The notes: generated by a model not told the origin, from the letters alone. A stretch of DNA of 57,461 nucleotides from Fibrobacterota bacterium (GCA_028287505.1 JAQBPN010000112.1:1-57461); one strand, 5' to 3'. Numbered from the stretch's first letter, positions 6,765-45,218 are shown. Made by a program: numbers and translations.

Positions 6765-7868
6765 CTAAACGACCACCCTGCCGCGCTGCAAAGTGATGAT
6801 TTTTTCGGCTTGGAAAGGCAGATCCGCGGCCCGGGGATTGGCTATGAAAACCTGGCCTTTGCCCCGGATCATTTCGCCGATGCGGAGCCGCCGGGCCTCG
6901 TCCAGTTCCGCGAACACATCATCGAGAAGCAGGATGGGCGGACGGTGGTTTTTTTGCTCCAGGAGCTCCGCGGAAGCCAGCTTGAGGGAGAGGGCCACCG
7001 AGCGCTTTTGTCCCTGGGATCCGAAGTCCCGCACCGGCTTGCCGGAAAGGAAAAAGGCCAGGTCCTCCCGGTGCGGCCCCGCCAGGGTGAGGCCGGCCTC
7101 GCGTTCTGGGACGCGCATGGCCATGAGCTTGCGCTGGAAATCCTCGCGGATGGCAGCCTCGTCGCCGGCTTCCGAGACGCAACCGGACAGACTCAGGCTC
7201 AAAGCTTCGCCTCCGTCCGAGATGGACCGGTAGCAGGCCTCCGCCAAGGGCGCCAGGTCCGCCAGGGCGCCCCGCCGCATCACGGTGATGCGCGCCCCCG
7301 TTTCCACCAAAGGCGCGTCATAAGCGGCCAGCACGTCGCCGCCGAAGTCGCGGGAGCCCGCGCCCATCTGCTTGAGCAGGCTGTTGCGCTGTTTGAGGGC
7401 CTGGTTGTAATGCCGCAGGGTATCCAGGTAATCCAGGGAAAACTGGCACAGGAGGATGTCCAGGTAGCGCCGGCGGATCTGGGGGCCGGAACGGATCAGA
7501 TCCAGGTCCTCGGGGCTGAAGGAGACCACTTCGAAATGCCCGATCAGGTCCGACAGGCGCTTGCTCTCGCGTCCGTTCACCTTCACGCGCTTGGCCCCCG
7601 TCTCCGTGTACTCCACCGACTGGGCGTGCTCCTGCCCGCCGATGCGGCCCATGACGCGCAATACGAATGCGGTCTGGTTCCACTGGATCAATTCCTTGTC
7701 CTTGCGCGTGCGCTGGGAATGCGCCAGGCACGCGTAATGGATGGCCTCCAGAAGGTTGGTCTTGCCATGGCCGTTGGGACCGGAAAGCAGGTTGAGGCCG
7801 GGACAGAAGGAGATTTCCTGGCTTTCATAATTGCGGAAATGCGTGAGGGAAACGGTCTCGAGATGCAT
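6765..7868 (-). CDS. recF: DNA replication/repair protein RecF
   Basis: SMC-like ATPase that helps load RecA at single-strand gaps. 367 residues from the ATG at 7868. Walker A GPNGHGKT at residues 30-37, ABC signature region FGSQGQKRSVALSL, Walker B ILLLDDVFAELD followed by the D-loop. The start is fixed by overlap: TGATG joins the upstream lipoprotein stop to this ATG, suggesting translational coupling. The long open frame that continues upstream to 8519 is a shadow of that lipoprotein gene. Separation from dnaN, which lies 24 kb away, departs from the classic dnaA-dnaN-recF order. Confidence 0.96.
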   Translation of the reverse strand: MHLETVSLTHFRNYESQEISFCPGLNLLSGPNGHGKTNLLEAIHYACLAHSQRTRKDKELIQWNQTAFVLRVMGRIGGQEHAQSVEYTETGAKRVKVNGRESKRLSDLIGHFEVVSFSPEDLDLIRSGPQIRRRYLDILLCQFSLDYLDTLRHYNQALKQRNSLLKQMGAGSRDFGGDVLAAYDAPLVETGARITVMRRGALADLAPLAEACYRSISDGGEALSLSLSGCVSEAGDEAAIREDFQRKLMAMRVPEREAGLTLAGPHREDLAFFLSGKPVRDFGSQGQKRSVALSLKLASAELLEQKNHRPPILLLDDVFAELDEARRLRIGEMIRGKGQVFIANPRAADLPFQAEKIITLQRGRVVV

Positions 7869-8587
7869 CAGAGCGCCGAGCCTTCGAAAGTCAGCTTCAC
7901 GTCCGCCACCCCGTCTTCGCTCAGGGTCAGGGTCTCTTCTCCCGGGGTCCCTGCAAGGGAACCGTCGGCGCTCTGGGACCAGAGTTCCTTCCACGTGAAG
8001 GATTTTCCGCCCAGGCGCACGCTGGCCGTCATCCCGGGCTGGAGGCCGCTGAAAGTGAATTCCCGGCGCAGGGCGATGTCGCCGTAGTGGTCGTCGTAGG
8101 CGGGATGTTCTTCTACGCGGAGGGTCTTTCCCCCCGGCAGATCCAGGGAGTAGCGGAGGATCAGATAGCCCAGGGAATCCTGTTCGAAGCCCAGGAACAT
8201 GGGTTTCAAGGGCAGGGTTTCTCCCCCGGCATCCACGTGCCACAAGGTGTCGGCTTCCTGAAGGTGGTAGAGGGGGCCTTGGGGGACATAGGCACTGTCC
8301 GTCGCGCTTGCATTGCCCGGGACGGGACCCCGCCACGCCATGTACAGTCCGCAACGCGCGGTGTCGTAAACCAGGGTCATGGCCGCTGCAGAGGCGGCGA
8401 AGAAGAGGAGGCCCTGTCTGCCGTTCAAGGCTCCTCGATAGAGTCCCCGGCCAATGGATACGGGTTCGCCGTTTCCGGGCGGCCCCATCGTCCCCTCCGC
8501 GCTTTTCCCGCGGCCGCATCCCGGCAGCAGGGAGGCGGCCAGGAAGAGCGCAAGGATGAGCTCCGGGCGGGTGGGGGTTTGCGGCAT
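7868..8587 (-). CDS. Hypothetical lipoprotein
   Basis: 239 residues. Signal peptide with lipobox LLPGC (Cys at about 24). The segment LVYDTARCGLYMAWRG resembles a short motif seen near the start of some secreted heme- or sugar-associated proteins of Planctomycetes-type bacteria, but there is no CxxCH here and I would not transfer function. The rest is beta-rich with SxDLPGGKTLRVEEHPAYDDHYGDIALRREF-type strands. It sits between a glycoside hydrolase-like gene (41 bases upstream) and recF (1-base overlap), so all three may be co-transcribed. Confidence 0.7.
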   Translation of the reverse strand: MPQTPTRPELILALFLAASLLPGCGRGKSAEGTMGPPGNGEPVSIGRGLYRGALNGRQGLLFFAASAAAMTLVYDTARCGLYMAWRGPVPGNASATDSAYVPQGPLYHLQEADTLWHVDAGGETLPLKPMFLGFEQDSLGYLILRYSLDLPGGKTLRVEEHPAYDDHYGDIALRREFTFSGLQPGMTASVRLGGKSFTWKELWSQSADGSLAGTPGEETLTLSEDGVADVKLTFEGSAL

Positions 8588-11652: not shown

Positions 11653-12480
11653 ATGATCGACATCTATCAGTATTTCGACTATCGCAAGTTGCTTAAGGAG
11701 CTTTACCAGGAACGCAAAGGCCGGGATCCCAAGTTTTCCTATCGGTATATCTGCCTCAAGACCGGCATCCGTTCGGCGGGATACTTTTCCAACGTGCTGG
11801 CCGGCAAAAGCAACATCTCCCTGAAAGTGGTCCTGAAGCTGTCCCAGCTCTTCGCCCTCAAAAGGGCGGAAGCGGACTACTTCGAATTGCTCGTGCTCTT
11901 CAACCAGGCCAAGACCCACGACGAGAAGAACCTGCTCTTCGATCGCATCCTCAAGGTCAAAAAGTCCAAGATGAAAACCCTGGACGCCAGCTATTACGAA
12001 CTCTTCAGCCATTGGTATTACGTGGCCATCCGCGAAGTGCTGGACTTCTATCCCTTCCGCGGCGATTACCGCGAGCTGGCGCAAATGGTCTCTCCGCCGG
12101 TCACGGCCAAGGAGGCGGAACGTGCCGTGGTGGTGCTGGAAACCCTGGGCCTGATCGGCAAGAACGCCAAGGGCGTGTACGAACGGGTGGAAGCCTTGGT
12201 GACCACGGGCGAGGAAACCCGCTCCATGGCCATCGTGCAATTCCAGAAAACCACTTTGGACCTGGCCAAGCGCGCCTTCGACGCCTTTCCCCTGGAAGCG
12301 CGGGACATTTCCACCCTGACCATCAGCGTTTCCCGCCGCAACTTTCCGAGGATCAAAGAGAAGATCCGCGCATGCCGCCGGGAGATCCTGGAACTGGCCA
12401 AGGCCGATGACGATACCGACACGGTGTTCCACCTGAACATCCTGGCCTTTCCCCTGAGCAAGTGGACTCCCATCGAATGA
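11653..12480 (+). CDS. TIGR02147-family regulator
   Basis: 275 residues starting MIDIYQYFDYRKLLKELYQE, preceded by the ribosome binding site GGGGGCGAAGG, which decides this start over the upstream in-frame ATG at 11584. The N-terminal part is a helix-turn-helix-like region: FSYRYICLKTGIRSAGYFSNVLAGKSNISL, then KVVLKLSQLFALKRAEADYFELLVLFNQA. The remainder is an all-alpha domain including the SxYYELFSHWYYVAIREVLDF motif typical of TIGR02147. The family is a large paralogous group known mainly from Fibrobacter, with a putative DNA-binding role. It overlaps the next gene by ATGA, so it may control or sense that lipoprotein. Confidence 0.9.
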   Translation: MIDIYQYFDYRKLLKELYQERKGRDPKFSYRYICLKTGIRSAGYFSNVLAGKSNISLKVVLKLSQLFALKRAEADYFELLVLFNQAKTHDEKNLLFDRILKVKKSKMKTLDASYYELFSHWYYVAIREVLDFYPFRGDYRELAQMVSPPVTAKEAERAVVVLETLGLIGKNAKGVYERVEALVTTGEETRSMAIVQFQKTTLDLAKRAFDAFPLEARDISTLTISVSRRNFPRIKEKIRACRREILELAKADDDTDTVFHLNILAFPLSKWTPIE

Positions 12481-14357
12481 GAGTTTTTCCCGCATTCACC
12501 GCGGCGTTCGCCGCGCCATTCACCCTGGCTTCGGCCCTGCTGCTGTCCGCCTGTTTCGAAAACAAGCCGGATCAGGTCGCCGGAGGCGGCATCGAAACCG
12601 GAAATACCGGTTCCCTGACGGGCCGCGTGCTGACGGATGCGGGCCGCCCCATCACCCATGCGGACATGATCCTGGCGGAGGTGAAGCTCACCGCCGACGG
12701 GCCGGTAAGCCTGTCCGAGAAGGTCGTGGCCACGGACGATTCCGGCCGCTACCGGTTCGACTCCATGCCGGAAGGACGATACGCCGTCTACGCCCCCGGA
12801 AGGACCGATGGCATGTCGGCGCTCCTCACGCGCATCCACAAGCTCTCGGGAGACCTGGGGCTCCCGGACATGACGGCGCGCGGCACGGTAACCTTGGTGG
12901 GACGTATCCTTCCGGCGGCGGACGAGGACGTGCGCAACACCATGGCCTGCATTCCCGGCGTGGGCCTGTGCGCGCGGCCGGGCCCGGACAGCATTTACCG
13001 CATCTCCGGCGCCCCCCTGGGCAGCTATGAAGCCGTGGTCTTTTCCCGCAGCTCGGTGCAATACGTGGCCCTGGACGTCCGGCCTTCCAACTCCGCCGCC
13101 ACCGGCGGCAGCGACACCGCCTTCATCCGGGACATCGCCGTGGGCGAATCCGCCGAGGACGGCCGGCTTCCCTACACTTTCTATCCCACCGAAATCGAAC
13201 ACAGTTTCACCGGCCTGCCGGTGGCCTATCCGGACAATGCCCAGCCCGCCTGGTACAACAGCAAAGCCTTCGACAGCGTCCGCTACTTCATCCTCAACGA
13301 CGGCAACGCATTCAAGGAGGCGCAGCCGGAGGATTACCTGGCCCAATGGCGCTATTCTTCCGCCTTGCAGGGAGCCTTCGTGGCGGACGCGCCGGATCTG
13401 GCCGCCCCCCTGGCGGGCTTCCCGGTCCCCATCCGTCTCACCGCGCCCCGTTTCGACTTCTCCAAGGCCGCCGCCGACGGCAGCGACCTGGCGGTCTCGG
13501 ACGGCAAGGGCCGCCTGCTTCCCATCGAGATCGAAAGCTGGAATGCCGCCCTCGGCAAAGCGGTCATCTGGGTGCGCCTGGACAGCCTGGCCGCCCGGAA
13601 AAGCGACCGCAACCTGGTGCTGCATTGGGGCCGCGCCCAACCGCTTCCCTTGTCCCAGGGCTCGGGCGTGTTCCGCGCCGACAACGGGTTCGTGGGCGTA
13701 TGGCACTTGGCCGAACGGGGCGACGGCTTCAAGGCCTTCGACGCGCGCGGCGTATTCACGGGCTTCCTGATGGCCATCGGGGATGCGAATCCGGCCACGG
13801 TGCGGTCCGGCGAAGGCGTCTTGGGCGGAGGCTATGCCTTGGACACCACCTCCGGATACGTGAACGTACGGCAACAACCCAGCCTGGACGTGAGCAAGTC
13901 CTTCACCCTGTCCCTGTGGGCCCGGGCCCTCAAGGCGAATCCCGGGCGCGAGCAGGTGCTAGTCTCCAAATGGGAGCCCAACGCGCGGGAATGGCACTTC
14001 CGCGTGCTCCCCAGCGGCGTGCTCGAGCTCGAATTCGGGGATGGCATGGGCCAGATCCAGGGTAACGTCAACAGTACCCAGGCCGTGCCCAACCTCGATC
14101 AATGGCATCACTACGCCGCCGCCTACAACCAGGGTTCCATCCACCTGTACCTGGACGGCAAGGAAGTCTCCGTGCACGTCGCCCAGGGCAGCATACCCCG
14201 GAACGTCCATCTCTTCGAATCGGACATCCATATCGGATCCGACCAGGATCCGGGCATCAGCTGGAAGGGCGATCTCGACGAGTTCGAATACCTGTCGGTG
14301 GCAAAGACCGCGGATTGGATAGCCTCCGTGTACGCCACGCAAAAGCCCGCCCAGTAG
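12477..14357 (+). CDS. DUF2341/LamG-domain surface lipoprotein
   Basis: 626 residues. Lipobox LLLSAC near residue 25. Next comes a CarboxypepD_reg-like domain (TGRVLTDAGRPITHADM...DDSGRYRFDSMPEGRYAVY). A central DUF2341-like segment includes FPVPIRLTAPRFDF...DGSDLAVSDGKGRLLPIEIESW...NLVLHWG. The C-terminal LamG/concanavalin-like domain has SFTLSLWARALK...NLDQWHHYAAAYNQGSIHLYLDGKEV and HIGSDQ. This layout suggests binding of a carbohydrate or cell-surface ligand at the outer membrane. ATG at 12477 overlaps the regulator stop by 4 bases. Fibrobacter genomes often pair such lipoproteins with TIGR02147 genes, from memory. Confidence 0.85.
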   Translation: MRVFPAFTAAFAAPFTLASALLLSACFENKPDQVAGGGIETGNTGSLTGRVLTDAGRPITHADMILAEVKLTADGPVSLSEKVVATDDSGRYRFDSMPEGRYAVYAPGRTDGMSALLTRIHKLSGDLGLPDMTARGTVTLVGRILPAADEDVRNTMACIPGVGLCARPGPDSIYRISGAPLGSYEAVVFSRSSVQYVALDVRPSNSAATGGSDTAFIRDIAVGESAEDGRLPYTFYPTEIEHSFTGLPVAYPDNAQPAWYNSKAFDSVRYFILNDGNAFKEAQPEDYLAQWRYSSALQGAFVADAPDLAAPLAGFPVPIRLTAPRFDFSKAAADGSDLAVSDGKGRLLPIEIESWNAALGKAVIWVRLDSLAARKSDRNLVLHWGRAQPLPLSQGSGVFRADNGFVGVWHLAERGDGFKAFDARGVFTGFLMAIGDANPATVRSGEGVLGGGYALDTTSGYVNVRQQPSLDVSKSFTLSLWARALKANPGREQVLVSKWEPNAREWHFRVLPSGVLELEFGDGMGQIQGNVNSTQAVPNLDQWHHYAAAYNQGSIHLYLDGKEVSVHVAQGSIPRNVHLFESDIHIGSDQDPGISWKGDLDEFEYLSVAKTADWIASVYATQKPAQ

Positions 14358-14393: not shown

Positions 14394-14996
14394 GTGGGGA
14401 CCTTCTTGCGGATTTGCCTGGCATACGGCGCGGCCCTGATCCTCGCTTGCGACGGGAATCTGGACTCCAAAGACTTGACGGCCGTGACCGCGATACCGCA
14501 GGCGGGTCCCAATTGCGCCGGTTGCCATCCCTATCCCGATATCGACTACCAACATTACTCCCACCTCCTCCAGATCGGCCGCAACCACGCCGACAACAGT
14601 CCGGTCACCTGCCTGGACTGCCATGCCACCGCCATCGCATTCACGGAAAGCCCCATCATCGATTCCATTTTCCTGGATTCTTTCGGCGACACCTTGTCCC
14701 TGTTGAATAATCCCTATGACCCTTCCATCCACGGCTATCCCATGCTTCGCGCGGATACGCTACGCCGGCAACTCCCCATCCTCATGCCGGCGCGATCCGG
14801 GGCGATGCCCGGGATCCGGGAGTACGTGACGGCTTTGGCTCATCTCAACATGGTCGTGGACGTGGCTTTCGATTGGCGCTCTTCGGATACGGCGAGGTTT
14901 TCCGGAACCTTCGCCGGTTATGATCGTGAGGAGCAAACCTGTTCCGCCGTAGCCTGCCATGGCGGAAGGCGTATTTACCGCTGGCGGGACCTTTAA
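14394..14996 (+). CDS. Multiheme c-type cytochrome lipoprotein, paralog 1
   Basis: 200 residues with a GTG start. Lipobox LILAC (Cys 19), then heme-attachment motifs CAGCH (41-45) and CLDCH (73-77), and a C-terminal CSAVACH (183-189), a CX4CH type of site known from some multiheme cytochromes of metal-reducing bacteria. Between them lie HYSHL and LAHLN, whose histidines are conserved in all four paralogs and could be distal heme ligands. Likely a periplasm-facing electron carrier. No Shine-Dalgarno is visible; a TAAATTG box ends 5 bases before the GTG, suggesting a very short leader. It is 64 bases ahead of paralog 2 and may be co-transcribed. Confidence 0.85.
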   Translation: MGTFLRICLAYGAALILACDGNLDSKDLTAVTAIPQAGPNCAGCHPYPDIDYQHYSHLLQIGRNHADNSPVTCLDCHATAIAFTESPIIDSIFLDSFGDTLSLLNNPYDPSIHGYPMLRADTLRRQLPILMPARSGAMPGIREYVTALAHLNMVVDVAFDWRSSDTARFSGTFAGYDREEQTCSAVACHGGRRIYRWRDL

Positions 14997-15061: not shown

Positions 15062-15745
15062 ATGAACTTCATGCTTTCCGCACGCCGGATCCTCGCCGTC
15101 TCCTTCGGCCTTTTCGCGCTGACGGGCTGCGGCCAATGGAAGGTGGATTCCTCGGAATTGACCGCGCGCTCCGCCTCCACCGGCGCGGGTCCCGACTGCG
15201 CCGGTTGCCACGCATACCCTCTCATGGATCGCAACCACGATTACCATCTGAACAAGACGGCAGTCAACCAGGAGCTGAACGGCAAAATCACCTGCATGGA
15301 TTGCCACAGCCAATCCATCCGGTTCCACGCCATAACCGCCTTCGATTCCGTCTATGAGGATACCACCGGCGAGAGATGGGGAACCCTGGCCCATCCCGGA
15401 CCGGGTGACACCACCGCCGGCGGGACCGTGATCCGCAGCATGGTTTTCGTCAGGGTGGATACGTTGCCGCAGCACCAACCGATTCCCATGGAAGACCGGC
15501 CGGGAGCCGCCCCGAAATTCCAGGAATACATCACGGGCCTGGCGCATATGAACAACAAGGTGGACGTGGTTTTCGACAGCCGTAATTCGCGGCCGGATGA
15601 ATTCGAAGGGGATTCGGCTTCTTACAATCCGACCCAGGAAACCTGCTCCGCGGTGGCATGCCATCCCGGTCCCAAGATCTATAGCTGGGGCTCCGTCGCC
15701 AAGGGCCTGCCGGAACTGAAAGACAAAGACCCGGGGAATCCATGA
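15062..15745 (+). CDS. Multiheme c-type cytochrome lipoprotein, paralog 2
   Basis: 227 residues. Lipobox LTGC (Cys 23) followed by GQWKVDSSELTA, a post-lipobox motif shared with paralogs 3 and 4. Heme motifs CAGCH (46-50), CMDCH (78-82) and CSAVACH near residue 195. Conserved histidines lie in NHDYHL and LAHMN, and QHQPIP and a VDVVFD strand are also shared. The stop overlaps the DUF4266 gene by ATGA, and that gene overlaps the DUF3570 gene, so three products are translationally coupled and probably work together at the cell envelope. Function as an electron carrier is inferred from the heme sites; the partner is unknown. Confidence 0.88.
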   Translation: MNFMLSARRILAVSFGLFALTGCGQWKVDSSELTARSASTGAGPDCAGCHAYPLMDRNHDYHLNKTAVNQELNGKITCMDCHSQSIRFHAITAFDSVYEDTTGERWGTLAHPGPGDTTAGGTVIRSMVFVRVDTLPQHQPIPMEDRPGAAPKFQEYITGLAHMNNKVDVVFDSRNSRPDEFEGDSASYNPTQETCSAVACHPGPKIYSWGSVAKGLPELKDKDPGNP

Positions 15746-16002
15746 CCATGAAACGCATCCCTTTAGAAATCCTCCTCCGCTTGTTCCTCTCCGGCATTTT
15801 TCTTTCCGGCCTGTTGATGGCCGCGGGCGCCGCTCTTTCCGGCTGCGCCATGGTCCACCAGAAGGATCGCGAATTCCTCAGCGACCCCATCATGCAACGC
15901 ACGCCCGATCCGTTGGGCGCCTCCATGGAAGGCCATAATCTTCCGCGACGGGAAGGCTCGTCGGGCGGAAGCTCCGGCTCCGGCGGCGGATGCGGATGCT
16001 GA
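15742..16002 (+). CDS. DUF4266 small lipoprotein, copy a
   Basis: 86 residues. Signal peptide with lipobox LSGC (Cys 35), then KDREFLSDPIMQRTPDPLGA, the family's hallmark, a short linker with HNLPRREGSSGG, and a Gly/Ser-rich tail ending CGC. DUF4266 proteins are known to neighbour DUF3570 outer-membrane proteins, thioredoxins and often ApbE flavin transferases; their role is not established. The two terminal cysteines could bind metal or form disulfides with the TlpA encoded downstream. Overlaps the upstream cytochrome by 4 bases and the DUF3570 gene by 7 or 13 bases. Confidence 0.88.
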   Translation: MTMKRIPLEILLRLFLSGIFLSGLLMAAGAALSGCAMVHQKDREFLSDPIMQRTPDPLGASMEGHNLPRREGSSGGSSGSGGGCGC

Positions 16003-17174
16003 AGTTCCTTGCGGTCCTTTTATGCGGACTTGCCGCCGTTCCCCCGGCCGTGCTCGCCTCCGAATCCGACAACGGTCTGGACTTCAAGTACCTGTACTAC
16101 TGGGATCGCAACGGCGTCTGGAACCATACGCCCGCCTTCGCCTATTTCCGGAAGATAGCCGCGAACTGGAAACTCCAATGGGATCAGGAATTCGACGGGG
16201 TTTCCGGCGCATCCCGACGGCTCGGCTTGCGGAACATCGGCCGCCTGGCCGACAATGATCTGAAATTGGACGGCATCAGCGGCGCGTCCAAACGCGAAAT
16301 CAGGCATTCCGAACAGGCCACGGCCGCCTATGCCAACCAGGGCCGCAATGCTTCCGCCTCCTTTTATTTCAGCGATGAAAACGATTACCGATCCTACTCG
16401 CCTTCCGTGTCCGGATCGATGGACTTCAACGAACGCAATACCACCTTGAGCGGCGCCGCGGCCGAGTTTTTCGACGACCTGCATCCCACCGGCCCCTTTA
16501 CGGGACTGGGCGGCAAACGGAATATCCTTTCCCTCACCGGTTCTTTGGCCCAGATTTTCACGCCCTTGACCCTGGGCGCCGTCACCGCCAACGTGATCCA
16601 CAGCTCCGGACGCCTGGGGCATCCTTACAATCCCGTCCTCACCTCGCAAGGGACCTTGTTGCTGGAAAACCTACCGGATAGAAAGACCAGCGTCGCCCTG
16701 TCCGGGCAGATCATCCAGGGCTTCCATATCCTGGACCGCCTGGGCTCGGTGCGCCTCGACGCGCGTTATTATCGCGACGATTGGCAGCTCGTATCCGGCA
16801 CCGCCGACTTCCAGTGGTACCAATACATTCTGGAAAATACCTACCTGAGATTGCGCGCGCGCGGGTACCGGCAGGGTGCCGCCGCCTTCGCGAAAGCGGC
16901 CTATGAAGGCAATGAAGTCTATCGCACTCCGGATATCCGTTACTTCGATTTTTCTTCGCTCACTTTGGGCCTCAAGATCGGATCCGTTTTTCCGGAAAGC
17001 TGGGGCGGATCCGCCCTGCTTCCGGATCGATGGGATATCAGTTATGATCACGGCATGACCGATACCCAAGGGGAGGAGGACGGCGTCCGTCCCGCATACC
17101 ATTATCAATTGTTTCCGAACGACGAGTATTACGTCCAGGGAACCCTGATGGTGGGTCTCTCCTTCGACCTGTGA
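15990..17174 (+). CDS. DUF3570 outer-membrane protein, copy a, with twin DxxSGAS motifs
   Basis: 394 residues. Signal peptide (cleavage near VLASES) and a beta-barrel-like body with many Tyr/Phe-rich strands, ending FDL. The sequence DGVSGAS at 69-75 and DGISGAS at 94-100 repeats with a 25-residue period. Both match the D-x-x-S/T-G-A-S/T consensus at which ApbE attaches FMN in other proteins, so flavinylation is possible (inference). Conserved blocks FSDENDYRSYSPSVSGS and YHYQLFPNDEYYVQGT recur in copy b. The ATG at 15990 or 15996 overlaps the DUF4266 stop; 15996 aligns with the GTG of copy b. Confidence 0.88.
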   Translation: MRMLKFLAVLLCGLAAVPPAVLASESDNGLDFKYLYYWDRNGVWNHTPAFAYFRKIAANWKLQWDQEFDGVSGASRRLGLRNIGRLADNDLKLDGISGASKREIRHSEQATAAYANQGRNASASFYFSDENDYRSYSPSVSGSMDFNERNTTLSGAAAEFFDDLHPTGPFTGLGGKRNILSLTGSLAQIFTPLTLGAVTANVIHSSGRLGHPYNPVLTSQGTLLLENLPDRKTSVALSGQIIQGFHILDRLGSVRLDARYYRDDWQLVSGTADFQWYQYILENTYLRLRARGYRQGAAAFAKAAYEGNEVYRTPDIRYFDFSSLTLGLKIGSVFPESWGGSALLPDRWDISYDHGMTDTQGEEDGVRPAYHYQLFPNDEYYVQGTLMVGLSFDL

Positions 17175-17192: not shown

Positions 17193-17879
17193 TCAGCGCA
17201 GGGACATCCACGTATGCGTTTTGACCTGATCGCCCGCCCTGAGCTTGAACACCAGGGATCCGGAGGCTGCGCCCAGGCGGTTTGAGAATACCGACAGCGA
17301 GTGGGTGCCGGAACCGTAGTTCCCCTGGATCAAGGTGGCCAGGAGCCGCCCCTGGGTATCGAAGGCCTGGAGCAGGACGGCCCGGCTTTCAGCCAGACCA
17401 AACGTTACATCCACGTTACGGGTTTCCGGATTGAAATCCAGGGAGATCGGGTCCGTTGCGCCGGCAGGGGACGCGATGGCCGTGGAAGCCTTGACCGTGA
17501 GGGCGCCGCTAACCAGGATCCAGGGAGACTCGCCTCCGGGTTTGGATGCGTTCTGATCCGTGCATGGGCCGCTTTGGCAAATCCGGAATTTTCCATTGGC
17601 CGTCGCCATGGTGCCGGGAACGGTCCATTTGAACATGTCGCTTTTCTGGGTATCGGTGAAACCGGTTTTGATGTTGGTCCAGGTGCTTCCCCCGTCCTTG
17701 GAAAAAGCGATATCGATTCCCTTGCCATGGGTTTCTTCGACATTCCAGGTGATCGACACCGATTGCCCCACCGTCAGGGTTTCACCGCCGGCGGGCAGCA
17801 GGGATCCCGCGCTGAGATGCGCATGCGTCATCCCGGCGGCCAGAAAAACGAGACCCGAAAGATTTTTCCAGTTCATCAT
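17193..17879 (-). CDS. Secreted protein with predicted mature N-terminal His, paralog a
   Basis: 228 residues; SD AGAGGAG before the start. The signal peptide ends GMTHA at residue 20, leaving mature His1-Leu-Ser-Ala-Gly. The N-terminal domain carries GGETLTVG, His31, FSKDGGSTWT, FKWTVPGT and RICQSGPC, an Ig-like beta fold vaguely like Kre9/KNH1-type modules. The C-terminal part (ETRNVDVTF...LLQAFDTQGRLLATL...HSLSVFSNRL...FKLRAGD) resembles FlgD-like or type IX secretion tails. His1 and His31 are conserved, without gaps, in the three paralogs, a pattern compatible with a copper histidine brace (inference). A TATATTGG box lies about 60 bases upstream of the start. Confidence 0.8.
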   Translation of the reverse strand: MMNWKNLSGLVFLAAGMTHAHLSAGSLLPAGGETLTVGQSVSITWNVEETHGKGIDIAFSKDGGSTWTNIKTGFTDTQKSDMFKWTVPGTMATANGKFRICQSGPCTDQNASKPGGESPWILVSGALTVKASTAIASPAGATDPISLDFNPETRNVDVTFGLAESRAVLLQAFDTQGRLLATLIQGNYGSGTHSLSVFSNRLGAASGSLVFKLRAGDQVKTHTWMSLR

Positions 17880-18021
17880 GCTATGCTCCTCTTTCGAAAT
17901 CCGGACGATCCATGCTGACGGGGCACGGAGTCCTCAGGCACCCAATATATCCCATCGGAATGGGATTCGCCCGTTGCCGGGCCATCTTTTAGTTCACAGG
18001 TGAGAACTTCGCTTCTTCCCA

Positions 18022-18055
18022 GAAAACAAAAAAGGGACGCCCATGGCGTCCCTTT
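18022..18055 (-). terminator. Rho-independent terminator for the 18084-18797 gene
   Basis: On the minus strand: AAAGGGACGCC, loop ATG, GGCGTCCCTTT, followed by TTTGTTTTC. An 11-bp perfect stem with a strong T run, 28 bases beyond the stop codon. Confidence 0.9.
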
Positions 18056-18083
18056 CACATGCTTTGAAAAAAGCGGGGTTCGT

Positions 18084-18797
18084 TCAGCGGATTCCGTTCC
18101 AGGTATGGGATTGGACCTGATTGCCGACCTTGAGCTTGAAGATCAGGGAGTTCCCCGAAGCGTCCAGCCGGTTGGAGAACAGGGAAAGCTTATGGTTCCC
18201 GGCCGCGAAGTCACCTTGGACCAGGGTCGCCAACAGGCGGCCTTGGGTGTCGAAGGCCTGCAGCAGGACCGGCTTGCTTTCGGAAAGGCCGAAAGAAACA
18301 TCCACGTTACGGGTCTCGGGGCGGAAGTCCACCGTAAAAGCTCCCGATGCGGCGGAAACGGAATGGATGCCGGTGCTCGACCCAATGGTGAATGCGCTGG
18401 TGACCAGCACATAATTGCCATTGGGGGCGCTGGTGAGCGAATTGGTGTTGTCCGCGTCCGCGCAGGCTTTCACGGTGCCGCCGTCGTGCTGGCAGATGCG
18501 GATTTTCGCGGTCGCGGTGGCGGTTCCGGCAACGGTCCAGTTGAAGCTGTTGTCGCCCTGCGCGTCGTTGAAATTCTCCTTGATGGTGGTCCAAGTGCTG
18601 CCGCCATCGGTGGAAAGGTCGATGTTCGTACCCTTCGCGTGGTTGAACTGTTCCTTCCAGGTAATCTTATAGGTGGCGCCAACGCTCAATGCTTCGCCCG
18701 CAGTAGGCTTCAGTCCGTCCGCGAACAAATGCGCGCTCGCCATGCCGGCGGCCGTCATTACTACCAAACCTGCCCGAAGCCAATTCTTATTCAACAT
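18084..18797 (-). CDS. Secreted protein with predicted mature N-terminal His, paralog b
   Basis: 237 residues; SD AAGGAG 8 bases before the ATG. The signal peptide ends AGMASA at residue 22, so the mature chain starts HLFADGLKP. His31 falls in FNHAKG, at exactly the same mature position as in the other paralogs. Shared blocks: GEALSVG, STDGGSTWTTIKENF, FNWTVAGT, RICQ with a second Cys after a 9-residue insert (KAC), and the C-terminal tail PETRNVDVSFGLSES...LLQAFDTQGRLLATL...LFSNRLDASG. Predicted to be exported; surface delivery by a type IX-like route is possible but unproven. Its own terminator follows, so it is probably monocistronic. Confidence 0.82.
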   Translation of the reverse strand: MLNKNWLRAGLVVMTAAGMASAHLFADGLKPTAGEALSVGATYKITWKEQFNHAKGTNIDLSTDGGSTWTTIKENFNDAQGDNSFNWTVAGTATATAKIRICQHDGGTVKACADADNTNSLTSAPNGNYVLVTSAFTIGSSTGIHSVSAASGAFTVDFRPETRNVDVSFGLSESKPVLLQAFDTQGRLLATLVQGDFAAGNHKLSLFSNRLDASGNSLIFKLKVGNQVQSHTWNGIR

Positions 18798-19046
18798 AAT
18801 CCCGTCTCCTTTTCAGTGGGTTTTCCCCGGCACTCCGACTCGCAAATTGAACCATTTGCCAGCCCCTCCCCGGCTTTATCCTGGCTCGCGATCAGGTCAA
18901 ATCGACCCCACCGCAATCGCATTTGTCTCCCGTGGCGGAAAAGCGTTACAGTCGATTTCGCTTTTTTCCATCCGGCTCCGACGCGCCCAATCCCCCGGTA
19001 CCGCGGAAATCCGGCGTCCCGGGCAAAGGTTTTTAGCTTTTATCCA

Positions 19047-19685
19047 ATGCGGGGTTTTCTGAGGCACATCCTATTCGCGGCATGCGTAAGCCTGGTTTTC
19101 GCTTGCGGCGAGTGGAAAATGGGTTCCACGGAGCTAACGGCCCATTCCACGGCTGCGCAAACGGGTCCGGATTGCGCAAGCTGCCATGGTTACCTCCTTA
19201 ACGATTCCAACCACTTGTTCCACCTGCTCAAAGCCGACAGCAATAAGGCCGTCAACGGGTCGGTCACCTGCCTGGATTGCCACTCCACCGCCATCGCCTT
19301 TCGGGTGTCGCCTATCCTGGACTCGATCTTTGTCGATTCGTTCGGCGGCACATGGTCTTCCCTGGACTATCCCAAAAGCGCCGGCATCCGGGCCTTCCGG
19401 CTGGAGCGGGTGGATACCGTGCAGCAACACCGGCCCATCCCTTTGCCCGCCAGACCGGGCGCGAAACCGCTCTACCAGGAATACGTCACGGCTTTGGCGC
19501 ATTGCAACAATGTGGTGGATGTGGTCTTTGATTCCCGGATAACGGATTCGGTGAAGTATTCCGGCGCTCAGGCGCGGTACGACGCGAAACAGCAGACCTG
19601 TTCCGCGGTAGCCTGCCACGAGCGGGAGAACCCCTATCGATGGGCGGCGCCATCGAAGGGATTATCGGGGTTGAAAGGGGATTAG
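19047..19685 (+). CDS. Multiheme c-type cytochrome lipoprotein, paralog 3
   Basis: 212 residues from the ATG at 19047; the frame stays open far upstream (to 18000) but that part is antisense to paralog b. Lipobox LVFAC (Cys 20), then GEWKMGSTELTA, CASCH (43-47), CLDCH (75-79) and CSAVACH near residue 189. NHLFHL and LAHCN carry the conserved non-motif histidines. QQHRPIPLPARPG matches paralog 4 closely. It stands alone, flanked by two minus-strand His1 genes, without its own DUF4266/DUF3570 partners, so it looks like a detached third copy. Its stop overlaps the 3' end of the convergent gene at 19682 by 4 bases. Confidence 0.87.
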   Translation: MRGFLRHILFAACVSLVFACGEWKMGSTELTAHSTAAQTGPDCASCHGYLLNDSNHLFHLLKADSNKAVNGSVTCLDCHSTAIAFRVSPILDSIFVDSFGGTWSSLDYPKSAGIRAFRLERVDTVQQHRPIPLPARPGAKPLYQEYVTALAHCNNVVDVVFDSRITDSVKYSGAQARYDAKQQTCSAVACHERENPYRWAAPSKGLSGLKGD

Positions 19686-20362
19686 CGCAGGGTGTTGAAC
19701 AAGCGCGTGTAGGTCTCGCCGCCCACGGTAAGCTTGAACATCAAATGCCCGGATGCCGCGTCCAGCGCGTTGGAGAACAGGGAGAGGTGGTGGACGCCGG
19801 CTTCCTGAGAGCCGTCCAGCAGGGTGGCCAGGACTTGGCCGCGCGCATCGAATACCTGCAAGGTCACCTTTTCCGCCGAACTCAGTTCGAATGAGGTTTC
19901 CAGGCTGCGGGTTTCGGGGCTATAAGTCATAGAGGGGGCGGTCGCCGAAGCGGTTCCGACCGCGCCGATGCCGGTGCCCGCCGCTACGACGGTGAATGCG
20001 CCGCTTTTAAGAATGTAGATGGGATCGGTGCATTCCCCGCCGGCCAATTGGCAAGCCCGGAACATCCCCTGGGCGGTCACCGAATTGGGCACGGTCCAAT
20101 TGTAGGTAACCGTCGCGCCGTCTTCCTTCGGTCCCTGGAAGTTGCCGATGATTTCCGTCCAGGCGGTCCCGTTATTTTTGGAGAAATAGAAATCGTATTT
20201 CCCGTTATTGTGCCCTACAGTCTGCACGAGGGTCACTTTGACGATCTGGCCGACCGTAAAGGTTTCGCCGCCATGGATGCTCAATGAGCCTTGCTCCAAG
20301 TGGGCGGCGGCGAGCGATGCGATGGAGAGAGTGACGATCAGGCAAGATTTCAGATAGTTCAT
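19682..20362 (-). CDS. Secreted protein with predicted mature N-terminal His, paralog c
   Basis: 226 residues from the ATG at 20362, preceded by SD AGGAAA; an upstream in-frame start at 20413 is less likely. The signal peptide ends SLAAA at residue 20, giving mature HLEQGSLSIHGGETFTVG. His31 is conserved (VGHNNG), then FSKNNGTAWTEI, YNWTVPNS and RACQ...C. The C-terminal tail (YSPETRSLETSFELSSAEKVTLQVFDARGQVLATLLDG...HHLSLFSNALD) matches that of paralogs a, b and the 24489 protein. It is the most diverged of the three. A TATATTC box near 20426-20434 may be its promoter. Confidence 0.8.
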   Translation of the reverse strand: MNYLKSCLIVTLSIASLAAAHLEQGSLSIHGGETFTVGQIVKVTLVQTVGHNNGKYDFYFSKNNGTAWTEIIGNFQGPKEDGATVTYNWTVPNSVTAQGMFRACQLAGGECTDPIYILKSGAFTVVAAGTGIGAVGTASATAPSMTYSPETRSLETSFELSSAEKVTLQVFDARGQVLATLLDGSQEAGVHHLSLFSNALDAASGHLMFKLTVGGETYTRLFNTLR

Positions 20363-20550: not shown

Positions 20551-21216
20551 ATGGATCCGGGATACCGCATCATTGCCATCGCCTCGCTGACAGGCCTACT
20601 GATGGCCTGCGGCGAGTGGAAAGCCGATTCCTCCGGGTTGACCGCCCGTACCGCTGCGCCCGTCGAGAGCGCCAATTGCGCCAGTTGCCATGGGTATCCC
20701 CTGCAGGATACCAATCACGTTTTCCATTTGTTCCATACCGATGAGAACAAGCGCTTCAATGGGCCGATTACCTGCCTGGACTGCCATAACCGATCACTCC
20801 AGTACGACATCGTAACCCTGGTGGATACCATTTACGTCGATACCACGGACTCCTTTCCCGGCAATTGGTCCACCGTCGACTTTCCCGACCGGGACCCGCG
20901 CCTCACCTTCGAGGACACCATCCGTACCTTCACGATCAAGCGCATCGATACCTTGCATCAGCACCGGCCCATTCCCCTTCCCGAGCGACCCGGCCCGCCC
21001 ACCAGCTTCACCGAATACGTGACCGGGCTTGCCCACTTGAACGGCGCCATCGATGTCGAGTTCGATCCCAAAATCTCCGATGTCGCGCGCTTCGGTGGAG
21101 AGAAGGCCGGGTTCAACCCCACGGAAGAAACGTGCTCGGCGGTAGCCTGCCACCCCGGAGACAAACCGTATCGCTTCGCCGCGCCTTCCAAGCACTTGCC
21201 CGAGATGAAAGAATAG
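20551..21216 (+). CDS. Multiheme c-type cytochrome lipoprotein, paralog 4
   Basis: 221 residues. Lipobox LLMAC (Cys 20), GEWKADSSGLTA, CASCH (43-47), CLDCH (75-79) and CSAVACH near residue 190. Conserved histidines lie in NHVFHL and LAHLN. It opens the second complete cassette: nine bases separate it from the DUF4266 gene, and the DUF3570 and tlpA genes follow. Heme attachment and lipid anchoring are read from the motifs; the reaction served is unknown. No convincing Shine-Dalgarno precedes the ATG. Confidence 0.88.
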   Translation: MDPGYRIIAIASLTGLLMACGEWKADSSGLTARTAAPVESANCASCHGYPLQDTNHVFHLFHTDENKRFNGPITCLDCHNRSLQYDIVTLVDTIYVDTTDSFPGNWSTVDFPDRDPRLTFEDTIRTFTIKRIDTLHQHRPIPLPERPGPPTSFTEYVTGLAHLNGAIDVEFDPKISDVARFGGEKAGFNPTEETCSAVACHPGDKPYRFAAPSKHLPEMKE

Positions 21217-21225
21217 GAGACGGAT

Positions 21226-21456
21226 ATGATCCATCGCATCCTCTCCCTCGCATTGGCGGGGACTTCCGTTCTGATGCTCGGCGCCTCCTTGCAAGGTTGC
21301 GCCGCAGTGGCCCAAAAGGATCGGGAGTACCTCAGCGATCCCATCATGCAGCGCACTCCGGACGAATTGGGATCGGGGATGGAAAGCCATAACCTGCCCC
21401 GCCGGGAAGGATCTTCGGGGGGCAGTTCAGGGTCGGGCGGAGGCTGCGGGTGCTGA
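21226..21456 (+). CDS. DUF4266 small lipoprotein, copy b
   Basis: 76 residues. Lipobox LQGC (Cys 25), KDREYLSDPIMQRTPDELGS, HNLPRREGSSGGSS and the terminal CGC. The C-terminal 50 residues are nearly identical to copy a at 15742, whereas the signal peptides differ, showing selection on the mature part. SD AGGAG overlaps the upstream stop codon. The stop overlaps a GTG start for the DUF3570 gene (GTGCTGA), the same arrangement as in copy a (ATGCTGA). Confidence 0.88.
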   Translation: MIHRILSLALAGTSVLMLGASLQGCAAVAQKDREYLSDPIMQRTPDELGSGMESHNLPRREGSSGGSSGSGGGCGC

Positions 21457-22646
21457 GATCCATGGGCGCCAGATCCTTGCTCGTCGTCTGCGGCTTCATG
21501 GCCGTGGCGCCACCAAACCCCGCCGCCGCTTCCGGCGCCGACAACGGCCTGGAAATGAAATACATGTATTACTGGGATCGCAATGGCGTCTGGAACCATA
21601 CCCCCGCGATTGAGTTCTTCAAGAAGCTATCGACCACTTGGAAGTTCCAGTGGAACCAGGAACTGGACGCGGTTTCCGGAGCATCGCGGCGCCTGGGTCT
21701 GCGCAACATCGGCCGCCTCGGCGATCATGACGCGGAATTGGACGGCATTTCCGGCGCCTCGAAGCGGGAGCTCCGCCATTCGGAGCAGGCAGCGGCTGTC
21801 TATTCCAATCAGGGACGCGTCGGTTCCGGGTCCCTCTACTTCAGCGACGAAAACGATTACCGGTCCTATTCGCCCTCCTTCTCCGGTTCCTGGGACTTCA
21901 ATGATCGAAACACCACCTTGGGGGGCGGCGCCGCGTTCTTTTTCGACGACTTCAGGCCCCGCGCCCCGTTCCAGGGACTGGGCGGGAAACGCACTATCGC
22001 GTCCTACACCGCCACCATTGCCCAAGCGGTTACGCCTCTCTCGCTGGCCGGCCTGACCGTGAACGCCATTCACAGTTCCGGTTACCTGGGACACATGTAC
22101 AATCCCGTCATCACGTCCGGGGGATCCGCCATTCAGGAAAACCTCCCGCGACTCAAGAACAGCGTGGCCGTTTCAGGGCAATTCATCCAAGGTTTCCACA
22201 TCGGCGAACGGCTGGGTTCCGTCCGGCTGGAAGCGCGGCACTACCGCGACGATTGGAAATTGGTTTCAAACACCGCGGATTTGCAATGGTACCAATACCT
22301 GACGGAAGGAACCTATTTCCGGCTTCGCGCCCGCGGCTACCGTCAGGACGCGGCCGCCTTCGCCAAAGATGCCTACGCGGGCGATGAGATCTACCGCTCG
22401 CCGGATGTCAGATATTACAAATTCTCAGCACTCACCTTGGGTCTCAAAGTGGGTTCGGTTTTTCCGGACAGCTGGGGCGAGTCGGCTTTACTGCCGGATC
22501 GCTGGGATATCGGCTATGACCATGGGGTTCGGGACACCAAGGGCGAAATGGATGGCGTTAACCCCCTGTACCATTACCAACTTTACTCGCCGAATGAGTA
22601 TTATATCCAAGGCACCTTCATGGCCGGACTCGGTTTCGATTTTTGA
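21450..22646 (+). CDS. DUF3570 outer-membrane protein, copy b, with twin DxxSGAS motifs
   Basis: 398 residues from GTG 21450; the ATG at 21462 is an alternative. A signal peptide is followed by a barrel-like body closely matching copy a throughout. Motifs DAVSGAS (73-79) and DGISGAS (98-104) keep the 25-residue spacing seen in copy a, so both potential FMN-attachment sites survive in both copies. Other shared blocks are YYWDRNGVWNHTPA, FSDENDYRSYSPSFSGS and LGLKVGSVFPDSWGESALLPDRWDI. The stop is followed 11 bases later by tlpA. No apbE gene is in the window; it would have to lie elsewhere if flavinylation occurs. Confidence 0.88.
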   Translation: MLRSMGARSLLVVCGFMAVAPPNPAAASGADNGLEMKYMYYWDRNGVWNHTPAIEFFKKLSTTWKFQWNQELDAVSGASRRLGLRNIGRLGDHDAELDGISGASKRELRHSEQAAAVYSNQGRVGSGSLYFSDENDYRSYSPSFSGSWDFNDRNTTLGGGAAFFFDDFRPRAPFQGLGGKRTIASYTATIAQAVTPLSLAGLTVNAIHSSGYLGHMYNPVITSGGSAIQENLPRLKNSVAVSGQFIQGFHIGERLGSVRLEARHYRDDWKLVSNTADLQWYQYLTEGTYFRLRARGYRQDAAAFAKDAYAGDEIYRSPDVRYYKFSALTLGLKVGSVFPDSWGESALLPDRWDIGYDHGVRDTKGEMDGVNPLYHYQLYSPNEYYIQGTFMAGLGFDF

Positions 22647-22657
22647 AAAGGAAGCAA

Positions 22658-23155
22658 ATGCGTTCGATCGTATCCACCCTAGGCCTCTCCGTCTTCCTGG
22701 CCGCGGCCCTTTCCGTATCCGCCGCCGAACCGAAATCCATTCCCGCGTTCTCGCTTCCCGATCTCGAAGGCAAAATCCATGACTCCAAGGAGTGGAAGGG
22801 CAAAGTGGTCGTCCTCGATTTCTGGGCCACCTGGTGCACGGGATGCCGGGCCACCATCCCGGTCATGGAGCGTTTGCAGGAAAAGTTCGGACCGCAGGGA
22901 CTGGTGGTCAACGGAGTGAGCGTGGACAAAGGGCCCAAGGAGAAGGTCGCCAAGTTCGCCCGTAAAATGAAGATGGGCTATCGGATCCTTTGGGACTCGG
23001 AGGACACCTTATCCAAACAGCTCGGCTTCCAAGGCCTACCCTCCGTCTACGTGTTCGGACGGGACGGCGCCCTGCTCAAGGCCATGCCGGAATACACGCC
23101 CGCGCAGGAAAAGGAAATGGAAGCCCTGGTGGAAGGCCAGTTCCAGGCCAAATAG
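22658..23155 (+). CDS. TlpA-family thioredoxin-like protein
   Basis: 165 residues from the ATG at 22658, preceded by SD AAGGAAG; an in-frame TTG at 22643 is less likely. Signal peptide ending near SVSAAE, then a thioredoxin fold of the TlpA/ResA type with active site FWATWCTGCRATIPVM (CTGC near residue 55) and cis-Pro region GLPSVYVFGRDG. Such proteins reduce disulfides in the periplasm, including apocytochrome CxxCH sites and copper-site cysteines. Directly downstream of DUF3570 copy b, it is the expected thioredoxin partner of DUF3570/DUF4266 clusters. Target could be the cytochromes, the CGC tails, or both. Confidence 0.9.
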   Translation: MRSIVSTLGLSVFLAAALSVSAAEPKSIPAFSLPDLEGKIHDSKEWKGKVVVLDFWATWCTGCRATIPVMERLQEKFGPQGLVVNGVSVDKGPKEKVAKFARKMKMGYRILWDSEDTLSKQLGFQGLPSVYVFGRDGALLKAMPEYTPAQEKEMEALVEGQFQAK

Positions 23156-23196: not shown

Positions 23197-24333
23197 CTAG
23201 GGCGCCACCGCCGCCACTCCGGCGAACGCCCGCAACCCGGGCATCATCCGCTTTCCGTCCACTCCCACCAAACCGCGCCACTCCCCATAGGTAGCTTTAA
23301 GGTTACCCTGGGACCAGACCAGCACCCGGGCCCGGGCCGCTCCCATGTCCGGCTTCCCCCGGTTCCAATCCAACAGCGCCGAAGTGGCGGTAGGCAAGGT
23401 TGCCGCGGGCGGGCTTTTCCGGTAGGCGTCGTAATAGCCTTGCAGGGCCGCCTGATCCAGTTTGGGATATTTCGCCATGTCGAAGACCAGGAAGCGCTCC
23501 CAGATCTTCATGGGGGTTTCCGGCGTGATCACGGCGCCCTTGTCCCCGTAGTATGCGCCGATGCGGCCGTATCCCTTGAAGTTCTGTTTGGTGGGGCGCG
23601 GGCTGGCCGGATGATCCATCGCCAGCACGCCGTACCGGCTGGTCTTCACGTTGAAGCTCTCGAACACCCAGGAATTGCTGTCCTTGACGGCGATGACGTC
23701 GGCCGGTTGCAGGACGGCGTCCTTGGGCAGGATGGCGGTGGCGGTATCGTCCTGGGAGTCGCTGCGGAATTGCAGGCCGCCATGGGCGGGCGTGGCCTTG
23801 ACCGTCATTTCCCCTTTGGGCGAAATCACCTGGGCCGCGAAGTCCAGCGCCAGCATGCCGTCAGCGGGAAACCAGGCCGTCACCTCGCGGATATCCTGGC
23901 CCATGAGCGTTCCCGCCGCGTCGATCCAATCGGTCTGGGATGCGCGCCGGGCGAACACCCCGTTGGCGGCCTCCCGCTCGGGCAGATAGCGGTTGTGGGA
24001 TTGATGGTTGCCGTCCGGGCATTCCCAGAAGTTATCGGTCTTGCCCTGGGAGGTCACGTCGGACCAGCCCAGCCAGATGCCGCGGTGGTGCCCCCAGAGA
24101 CGGCCCGCCCCTTTGGTGATGAACCCTTCCCCGTGGAAGCCGTAGACGTGGTGGAACACTTTCTTCGTGGAGTCCTTGCCGTCGTACCGGGTCATGAGGC
24201 GGTAGACCGGCTTGTCTCCATAGAGCAGATCCAAATCCCCTGCGGCATCCTGGAACTTGAAGGTGTCGGCGGCGAGCGCGCCTCCGAAAGCGATGGATAT
24301 CGAAAGCATGGCCATCCGCAACAAGCTTCGCAT
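23197..24333 (-). CDS. DUF6807 (PmoA-like) secreted protein
   Basis: 378 residues from the ATG at 24333, preceded by a strong SD (AGGGGAGGG). Signal peptide ending GGALAAD. The motif FHHVYGFHGEGFITKG...HHRGIWLGWSD is the hallmark of the family annotated as PmoA/DUF6807. Despite the PmoA label, these proteins are not particulate methane monooxygenase subunits; they are common near carbohydrate-active genes in Planctomycetes, Bacteroidota and relatives, and may be sugar-modifying enzymes. It converges with the tlpA gene and precedes nothing obvious downstream. Confidence 0.8.
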   Translation of the reverse strand: MRSLLRMAMLSISIAFGGALAADTFKFQDAAGDLDLLYGDKPVYRLMTRYDGKDSTKKVFHHVYGFHGEGFITKGAGRLWGHHRGIWLGWSDVTSQGKTDNFWECPDGNHQSHNRYLPEREAANGVFARRASQTDWIDAAGTLMGQDIREVTAWFPADGMLALDFAAQVISPKGEMTVKATPAHGGLQFRSDSQDDTATAILPKDAVLQPADVIAVKDSNSWVFESFNVKTSRYGVLAMDHPASPRPTKQNFKGYGRIGAYYGDKGAVITPETPMKIWERFLVFDMAKYPKLDQAALQGYYDAYRKSPPAATLPTATSALLDWNRGKPDMGAARARVLVWSQGNLKATYGEWRGLVGVDGKRMMPGLRAFAGVAAVAP

Positions 24334-24488
24334 AAACCCTCCCCTGGTGATGCGCAACTCCCGTCGGAAACGGGTGCAGATCCAGTATACGGCAGGCGGG
24401 CGCGTTCGCGCAGGAGGCCCGCGCACGAATGGGGCTTCCAGCGGGGCCATTCCGGCCCCCAAAATTCCTCAAGAGGAAAGGCGTTTGT

Positions 24489-24902
24489 TCAGCGGGGGCG
24501 GGAATGCGTCTCGGCCAGCACGGCCTGTCCGGCCCGCAGCCGGAAAATCACGTGGCCTTGATAGCCTTGGAGGCGATTGGAAAAAAGCGAGAGATGGTGG
24601 AATCCCGATCCCTGGTTTCCGTCCAACAGGGTGGCCAAGAGCTTGCCCTGGGTGTCGAATGCCAGCAGGGAGACGCGCGCGCCCTCTTCGATCCCGAAGG
24701 TAACCTCCAAGCTACCTGCTCCCGCGTCGAACCGCATGCTGGGGGCGAAATACGCTCCGTGATCGGCGGGCGCCGAAATGGAACCTGCCGAGGCCGGAAG
24801 GCTCGTTCCCGTGTTGAGGGCCAGCAATCCCGGGACCTCATCGGCTGCGGCCATCCCCGCGGTTCCAAGCAAAATCAGGATCCACGATTTGAAGCTGGGC
24901 AT
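24489..24902 (-). CDS. Small secreted protein consisting mainly of a secretion-type tail
   Basis: 137 residues: a signal peptide (ILLGTAGMAAAD), a short linker of about 50 residues, then the same C-terminal domain as the His1 paralogs (LEVTFGIEEGARVSLLAFDTQGKLLATLLDG...HHLSLFSNRLQGYQG...FRLRAG). The His1-type N-terminal domain is absent. SD GGGGAGG precedes the ATG, and a TATATTTG box (24956-24963 region, minus strand) fits the FCB -7 consensus. It may be a degenerate paralog, an adhesin stub or a separate small surface protein; function unknown. Confidence 0.7.
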   Translation of the reverse strand: MPSFKSWILILLGTAGMAAADEVPGLLALNTGTSLPASAGSISAPADHGAYFAPSMRFDAGAGSLEVTFGIEEGARVSLLAFDTQGKLLATLLDGNQGSGFHHLSLFSNRLQGYQGHVIFRLRAGQAVLAETHSRPR

Positions 24903-45130: not shown

Positions 45131-45136
45131 TTTCCA

Positions 45137-45183
45137 GGCTTCTCGCTCTGGGGTTTACTTGCGTAAACTCCACGCTCGTCGCG
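45137..45183 (+). repeat. Dispersed hairpin repeat, copy 7
   Basis: GGCTTCTCGCTC, stem TGGGGTTTAC / GTAAACTCCA (a G-T wobble replaces G-C), loop TTGC, flank CGCTCGTCGCG. It lies in the gap between the yidC stop and the mnmE start. A partial unit (CCATCATTTTCCAGGCTCG) continues to about 45205. Confidence 0.85.
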
Positions 45184-45218
45184 TTCCATCATTTTCCAGG
45201 CTCGCCGCGTCCAAATCT

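Follow-up and report, generated by a model that had tools for sequence, protein, structure and literature searches.

The stretch of DNA analysed here (the window, 57,461 nucleotides, JAQBPN010000112.1) is one of the 130 contigs (C70) of a 6.07 Mb Fibrobacterota genome (GCA_028287505.1, G000). Its minus strand carries genes for three secreted two-domain paralogs, here named KHB1, KHB2 and KHB3, which are adjoined by genes encoding cytochromes and other electron-transfer proteins (Table 1). The initial annotation had described three open reading frames whose products might hold copper in a histidine brace, the arrangement by which known copper enzymes grip a metal ion with two histidines. The reading frames are real, and their coordinates and motifs hold. 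Because a conserved pair of histidines occurs together with adjoining electron-carrying proteins, the KHB genes point to an undescribed family of surface metal proteins, the metal probably being copper.

All three proteins begin with typical Sec signal peptides. Assigned by the AXA rule, the cleavage sites lie between THA and H in KHB1, ASA and H in KHB2, and AAA and H in KHB3, so that the predicted cleavage leaves histidine as mature residue 1 (His1 or H1) in each paralog, as had been proposed. The second histidine is mature residue 31 (His31 or H31), ungapped from His1, in KHB1, KHB2 and KHB3, and the cysteine pair that follows RICQ or RACQ is likewise present (C81 and C86 in KHB1 numbering). 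A crude rule-based scan of 29 stretches around KHB and related clusters returned 96 candidate signal peptides, nine with histidine at position +1; all nine belong to the KHB family. KHB2 and KHB3 are 53% and 44% identical to KHB1, respectively. KHB3 forms a separate clade in the tree and is without the long loop that follows the cysteine pair in KHB1 and KHB2. By topology this loop borders the putative metal site and could set different partners for each clade.

The histidine pair is conserved throughout almost the entire family. When 167 genomes of the phylum were searched with a profile, strong relatives of KHB turned up only in the six genomes of the same genus. The family therein comprises 15 members, namely KHB1-3 and 12 homologs from five other genomes of the genus, and 14 of the 15 retain both His1 and the loop histidine; the single exception lacks both, not one. 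The invariance that the initial annotation had asked of homologs is thus borne out to this extent. An alignment of the 13 closest homologs (35-50% identity to the first) has only six invariant columns: H1, H31, S40, G44, C81 and C86. A chance origin of the histidine pair is therefore unlikely. A divergent member (L061) has H1 and the loop histidine and neither cysteine. The exception (L058:13207-14169, genome G156) is of the KHB3 type, starts with Q1, has no loop histidine and keeps the cysteine pair and the C-terminal domain. It is nested in the well-supported KHB3 clade and therefore has lost both histidines.

Related domains outside the family do not show the pair. Some 260 other Kre9-type domains, drawn from the loci gathered in this analysis and aligned to the family profile, have a histidine at position 31 in about 1% of cases; of the five matches, one is a truncated KHB3 frame and one the L061 member. 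Neither H1 nor H31 occurs in those lipoproteins of the KHB-bearing genomes that have a Kre9-type domain. Among the matches listed for 198 Bacteroidota genomes there were Kre9 domains only, none starting at His1. A contig profile scan (11 loci) yielded mostly large Kre9-repeat proteins and no His1-bearing relative, and a tblastn search of plasmids gave no match.

The histidines belong to an immunoglobulin (Ig) domain of 103-116 residues, the N-terminal one of two Ig-like domains that we assign to each protein. The Pfam family Kre9/KNH (PF10342) scores it below the gathering cut-off of 24.6 bits (KHB1 18.8, KHB2 19.7, KHB3 no match) and matches seven of the 13 family members, with a best E-value of 1.7e-7. 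The initial annotation had spoken of a different sequence family; this stands insofar as the domain lies under the Pfam cut-off, but judged by its sequence it is a divergent, bare Kre9/KNH-like Ig sandwich. AlphaFold2, given an input alignment of the three window sequences only, models the KHB1 domain as an Ig-type beta-sandwich (pLDDT 77.7, pTM 0.75), which supports the proposed Ig-like fold; the two-domain model of full-length KHB2 is of lower confidence (pLDDT 71.3, pTM 0.51). In the strand order H1 stands where strand A begins, and H31 lies in the B-C loop. Both places share one end of the Ig topology, and the two histidines could therefore meet. Position 100 is occupied by tyrosine or tryptophan, once by histidine, in the 13 members, the aromatic residue being a candidate axial neighbour of the putative metal site. 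The C-terminal domain shows weak matches to FlgD_ig and to type IX secretion system (T9SS) tails, both seen in KHB3 (TIGR04183, cut-off 23 bits: KHB3 19.1, KHB1 14.5), and is frequent as a protein tail in this genome. KHB had no Pfam match to the Bim1/X325, CopC or YcnI (DUF1775) families. Structure searches of both models were dominated by antibodies, which were set aside as a common arrangement without functional meaning; the folds of Bim1, CopC and YcnI were not seen among the structure matches listed.

Beyond Kre9 domains, the resemblance of KHB is to lytic polysaccharide monooxygenases (LPMOs). A profile of the three window sequences, searched against all PDB sequences, has a single match at E < 0.01, the chitin-active AA11 LPMO 7P3U (E = 0.0026), which the 13-sequence profile finds at E = 8.3e-5. 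H31 aligns with residue 71 of the 7P3U chain, and AfAA11A, as this enzyme is called, has His1 and His71 as its catalytic histidines (PMC8668981). 7P3U is the only PDB chain whose profile match stands on a single stretch; sialidase matches of the 13-sequence profile were discarded because they reflect repeats of the Asp-box motif. A matched profile was built from eight Kre9 domains that have no brace, most of which carry the same Asp-box, and it did not find 7P3U at E-values up to 10. By structure, Foldseek places 7P3U at rank 11 (prob 1.00, TMq 0.56), and its 50 best matches also include a fusolin (4x29) and a chitin-binding domain (3uam). The model of SCE4755 polysaccharide monooxygenase-like proteins (NF043005) is touched by five of the 13 members (best E = 1.6e-4), with scores far under its cut-off of 75 bits (KHB3 13.7 bits, a genus homolog 18.7 bits); where coordinates are given, the matches cover the stretch around the second histidine. 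Searches in the phylum, in Bacteroidota and around G171 did not reach a genuine SCE4755 member. In our view the sequence resemblance to AA11 supports common descent without proving it.

Table 1. Genes of the KHB locus and its surroundings (positions counted from the first nucleotide of the window).
Feature	Position	Strand	Details
Lipoprotein	12462-14357	+	CarboxypepD_reg, DUF2341, LamG
cyt1, putative lipoprotein c-type cytochrome	14394-14996	+	heme motifs CAGCH, CLDCH, CSAVACH
cyt2, triheme lipoprotein cytochrome	15062-15745	+	heme motifs
DUF4266 small lipoprotein, CGC (CXC) end	15742-16002	+	Pfam PF14086, 50.2 bits
DUF3570 protein, two SGAS flavinylation motifs	15990-17174	+	Pfam PF12094, 105 bits
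KHB1, secreted two-domain protein	17193-17879	-	228 residues; H1 codon 17817-17819, H31 codon 17727-17729
KHB2, secreted two-domain protein	18084-18797	-	237 residues; H1 codon 18729-18731, H31 codon 18639-18641
cyt3, triheme lipoprotein cytochrome, between KHB2 and KHB3	19047-19685	+	Cytochrome_C7, 26.1 bits; motifs
KHB3, secreted two-domain protein	19682-20362	-	226 residues; H1 codon 20300-20302, H31 codon 20210-20212
cyt4, triheme lipoprotein cytochrome, divergent to KHB3	20551-21216	+	TIGR01904, 28.8 bits; motifs
Second DUF4266 small lipoprotein, CGC end	21226-21456	+	
Second DUF3570 protein, two SGAS motifs	21450-22646	+	Pfam PF12094, 118 bits
TlpA/ResA-like thioredoxin	22643-23155	+	AhpC-TSA/Redoxin; ResA-like
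Secreted DUF6807 protein	23197-24462	-	E = 2e-25
Stand-alone secreted KHB C-terminal domain, without His-bearing Ig domain	24489-24902	-	

The neighbouring genes form a putative electron-transfer module. The four cytochromes of the cluster are triheme (CxxCH, CxxCH, CSAVACH) and lipoprotein-like. They are accompanied by DUF3570 proteins with two [ST]GA[ST] motifs each, DUF4266 proteins with a CXC end and a thioredoxin-like gene, and one ApbE is encoded elsewhere in the genome, the features that mark a flavinylation module; of the cluster genes examined, none encodes DsbD or ApbE. Flavinylation-linked clusters of DUF3570, DUF4266 and thioredoxin-like genes are already known, and flavinylation of such motifs has been demonstrated for a DUF3570 protein of Chlorobium (PMC8238504). 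A c-type cytochrome is reported to reduce bacterial LPMOs (PMC8981238). Cytochrome, DUF4266, DUF3570 and TlpA genes are found beside KHB in five of the six genomes, with clusters equivalent to that of the window in G156, G157, G158 and G159. We considered whether KHB is part of every DUF4266 module and rejected this, as other modules of the genus are without it; KHB therefore supplements a single sub-type of the module. The genome of the window also encodes the SprA/Sov translocon of the T9SS. Heme-copper oxidases occur in all six genomes of the genus, and oxygen is therefore part of the life of these bacteria.

The locus varies in its composition. In the window, the cytochrome-DUF4266-DUF3570 half-module is present as a tandem duplicate (15062-17174 and 20551-23155) and flanks the KHB genes on both sides; DUF3570 is single-copy at the KHB locus of G157, G158 and G159. 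A secreted protein consisting of the KHB C-terminal domain only is encoded near the cluster in four genomes (Table 1 for the window; L054:9503-10450), and G159 has a very similar tail joined to a His1/His31 Ig domain, encoded next to TlpA. The two forms suggest loss or gain of a domain. The lipoprotein upstream of cyt1, possibly a surface carbohydrate binder, is also found beside the cluster in G157 and G159 (75-78% identity), and the DUF6807 protein beside that of G157. The KHB gene of G155 (L056, around 7297-8025) adjoins mnmE- and yidC-like genes, which in the window lie at 43736-47030, some 23 kb from the KHB cluster, suggesting a local rearrangement. G000 harbors six copies of DUF4266 (contigs C24, C47, C58, C70 and C90), versus one or two in those relatives outside the genus that carry DUF4266, with a DUF3570-like gene near each copy where examined.

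The reading that we favour, to which we assign a probability of about one half as a whole, is the following. Cleavage of the signal peptide would free the amine and the side chain of His1, and these would form a histidine-brace metal site together with His31 in the B-C loop of the Kre9/KNH-like Ig domain. The brace is the part we consider highly probable. The metal would most probably be copper, a likely assignment. The FlgD/T9SS-tail-like C-terminal domain probably takes KHB to the cell surface, a destination that we hold to be rather likely. There the metal might be reduced by the co-encoded TlpA-like thioredoxin, the DUF4266 CXC protein, the flavinylated DUF3570 protein and the triheme lipoprotein cytochromes, a proposal that we see as evenly balanced, and KHB could be a copper redox protein that acts on some substrate much as a minimal LPMO would, an oxidative role to which we would give slightly less than even odds. 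Of the copper brace as first proposed, the conservation of H1 and H31 stands and the Ig-like fold is supported, whereas copper and the geometry of the two histidines are what we infer.

Several observations weigh against the favoured reading. The mature His1 depends on cleavage predicted by the AXA rule, and the presumed nearness of H1 and H31 on strand topology. When the Asp-box stretch of the family profile (positions 38-49) is masked, the match to 7P3U is lost. Hence the match needs the Asp-box, yet it is not explained by the Asp-box alone, as the non-brace profile with this motif misses 7P3U. The KHB domain (103-116 residues) has none of the extra loops of LPMOs and falls short of the roughly 200 residues that characterize AA11. 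Regarding the module, G155 has an intact KHB gene apart from it, the closest module of that genome being without KHB, and other cytochrome-DUF4266-DUF3570-TlpA modules of the genus are without an N-terminal-His protein. Finally, the surroundings contain no substrate-linked genes that define a polysaccharide target.

The small size of the Ig domain, without the binding-surface insert of LPMOs, would also suit a brace limited to capturing, storing or passing on a metal in the manner of Bim1, CopC and YcnI or of DUF4198, possibly nickel, with the module reducing the metal before uptake. Metal binding without clear enzyme activity is seen in several N-terminal-His families: DUF4198, which prefers nickel, binds it at 18 nM and is no more than a weak peroxidase, and the same study describes its other families as metal-capturing (PMC12537917). 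In some genomes, moreover, DUF3570 modules are tied to iron assimilation (PMC8238504). However, the cluster genes that were annotated include no recognisable transporter, TonB receptor or metal ATPase, and the profile resemblance points to an active LPMO and to a family named polysaccharide monooxygenase-like. We judge metal capture to be a possible but doubtful alternative.

More improbable is the view that the KHB proteins are ordinary secreted Ig or adhesion proteins that keep H1 and H31 for folding, export or some other non-metal cause. Kre9-type domains are common and mostly without these histidines, the C-terminal domain is a widespread tail in the genome, and one paralog manages without both residues. 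It would leave unexplained that the residue exposed by signal cleavage is invariant together with a loop histidine 30 residues on, and that the histidines are lost jointly, not singly, in a domain type that ordinarily needs neither. That the cysteine pair C81/C86 is the working part, with KHB serving TlpA and DUF4266 as thiol partner and with histidines that bind zinc or are secondary, agrees with the invariance of both cysteines in the 13-sequence alignment and with the co-encoded thioredoxin and CXC proteins, but is very improbable, as the L061 member without cysteines keeps both histidines and the double-loss paralog keeps both cysteines, which separates the two features, and the pair looks like a structural disulfide.

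The Kre9-type Ig fold is very widely used in bacteria for other purposes. If copper is bound, this domain would be a new carrier of the histidine brace, and a very small one. Versions with and without the brace would then coexist along with a natural double-loss variant, and the steps from an Ig domain to a metal site would therefore be directly testable. The electron supply of bacterial brace enzymes is only partly known, and the conserved cytochrome-flavin-thioredoxin module would be a testable candidate for it; conversely, the uncharacterised DUF3570/DUF4266 module would obtain a possible client in KHB. In its most specific form the proposal is of an undescribed family of copper brace oxidases, each a bare Kre9-type Ig domain of about 110 residues, that receive electrons at the bacterial surface from a thioredoxin-flavin-triheme chain of their own; it is unlikely to hold in every part. 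Histidine-brace and N-terminal-His metalloproteins as such are already known, and new bacterial families were still appearing in 2025 (PMC12537917). None of the papers searched joins Kre9 domains with a histidine brace.

Among the known systems, KHB shares with the AA11 LPMO AfAA11A (7P3U) the start at His1, the alignment of H31 with His71, an Ig-like sandwich and an Asp-box after the second histidine. It differs from AA11 in a domain of about half the length (103-116 versus 201 residues), in the position of the second histidine (residue 31 versus 71) and in being bacterial. AA11 LPMOs have an axial Tyr and a second-sphere Glu/Asn; in KHB the residue at position 100 is a candidate for the axial place. 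With Kre9/KNH (PF10342) it shares the domain type by sequence, ordinary PF10342 members being without H1 and H31. The likeness to SCE4755 (NF043005) is a similarity around the second histidine, KHB having been compared with the model only and scoring far under its cut-off. Like KHB, DUF4198, DUF6702 and Ang-1/Ang-2 are secreted bacterial proteins in which signal cleavage leaves His1, which in them serves to chelate metal; KHB belongs to a different family, and the study describing them (PMC12537917) makes no mention of Kre9-type domains. The closest counterpart of the locus as a whole is given by the ApbE/DUF3570/DUF4266/thioredoxin clusters (PMC8238504), with which it shares the DUF3570 motifs, the CXC of DUF4266 and the thioredoxin, ApbE being encoded elsewhere in the genome. 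To these clusters the KHB locus adds triheme cytochrome lipoproteins and the His1/His31 Ig proteins.

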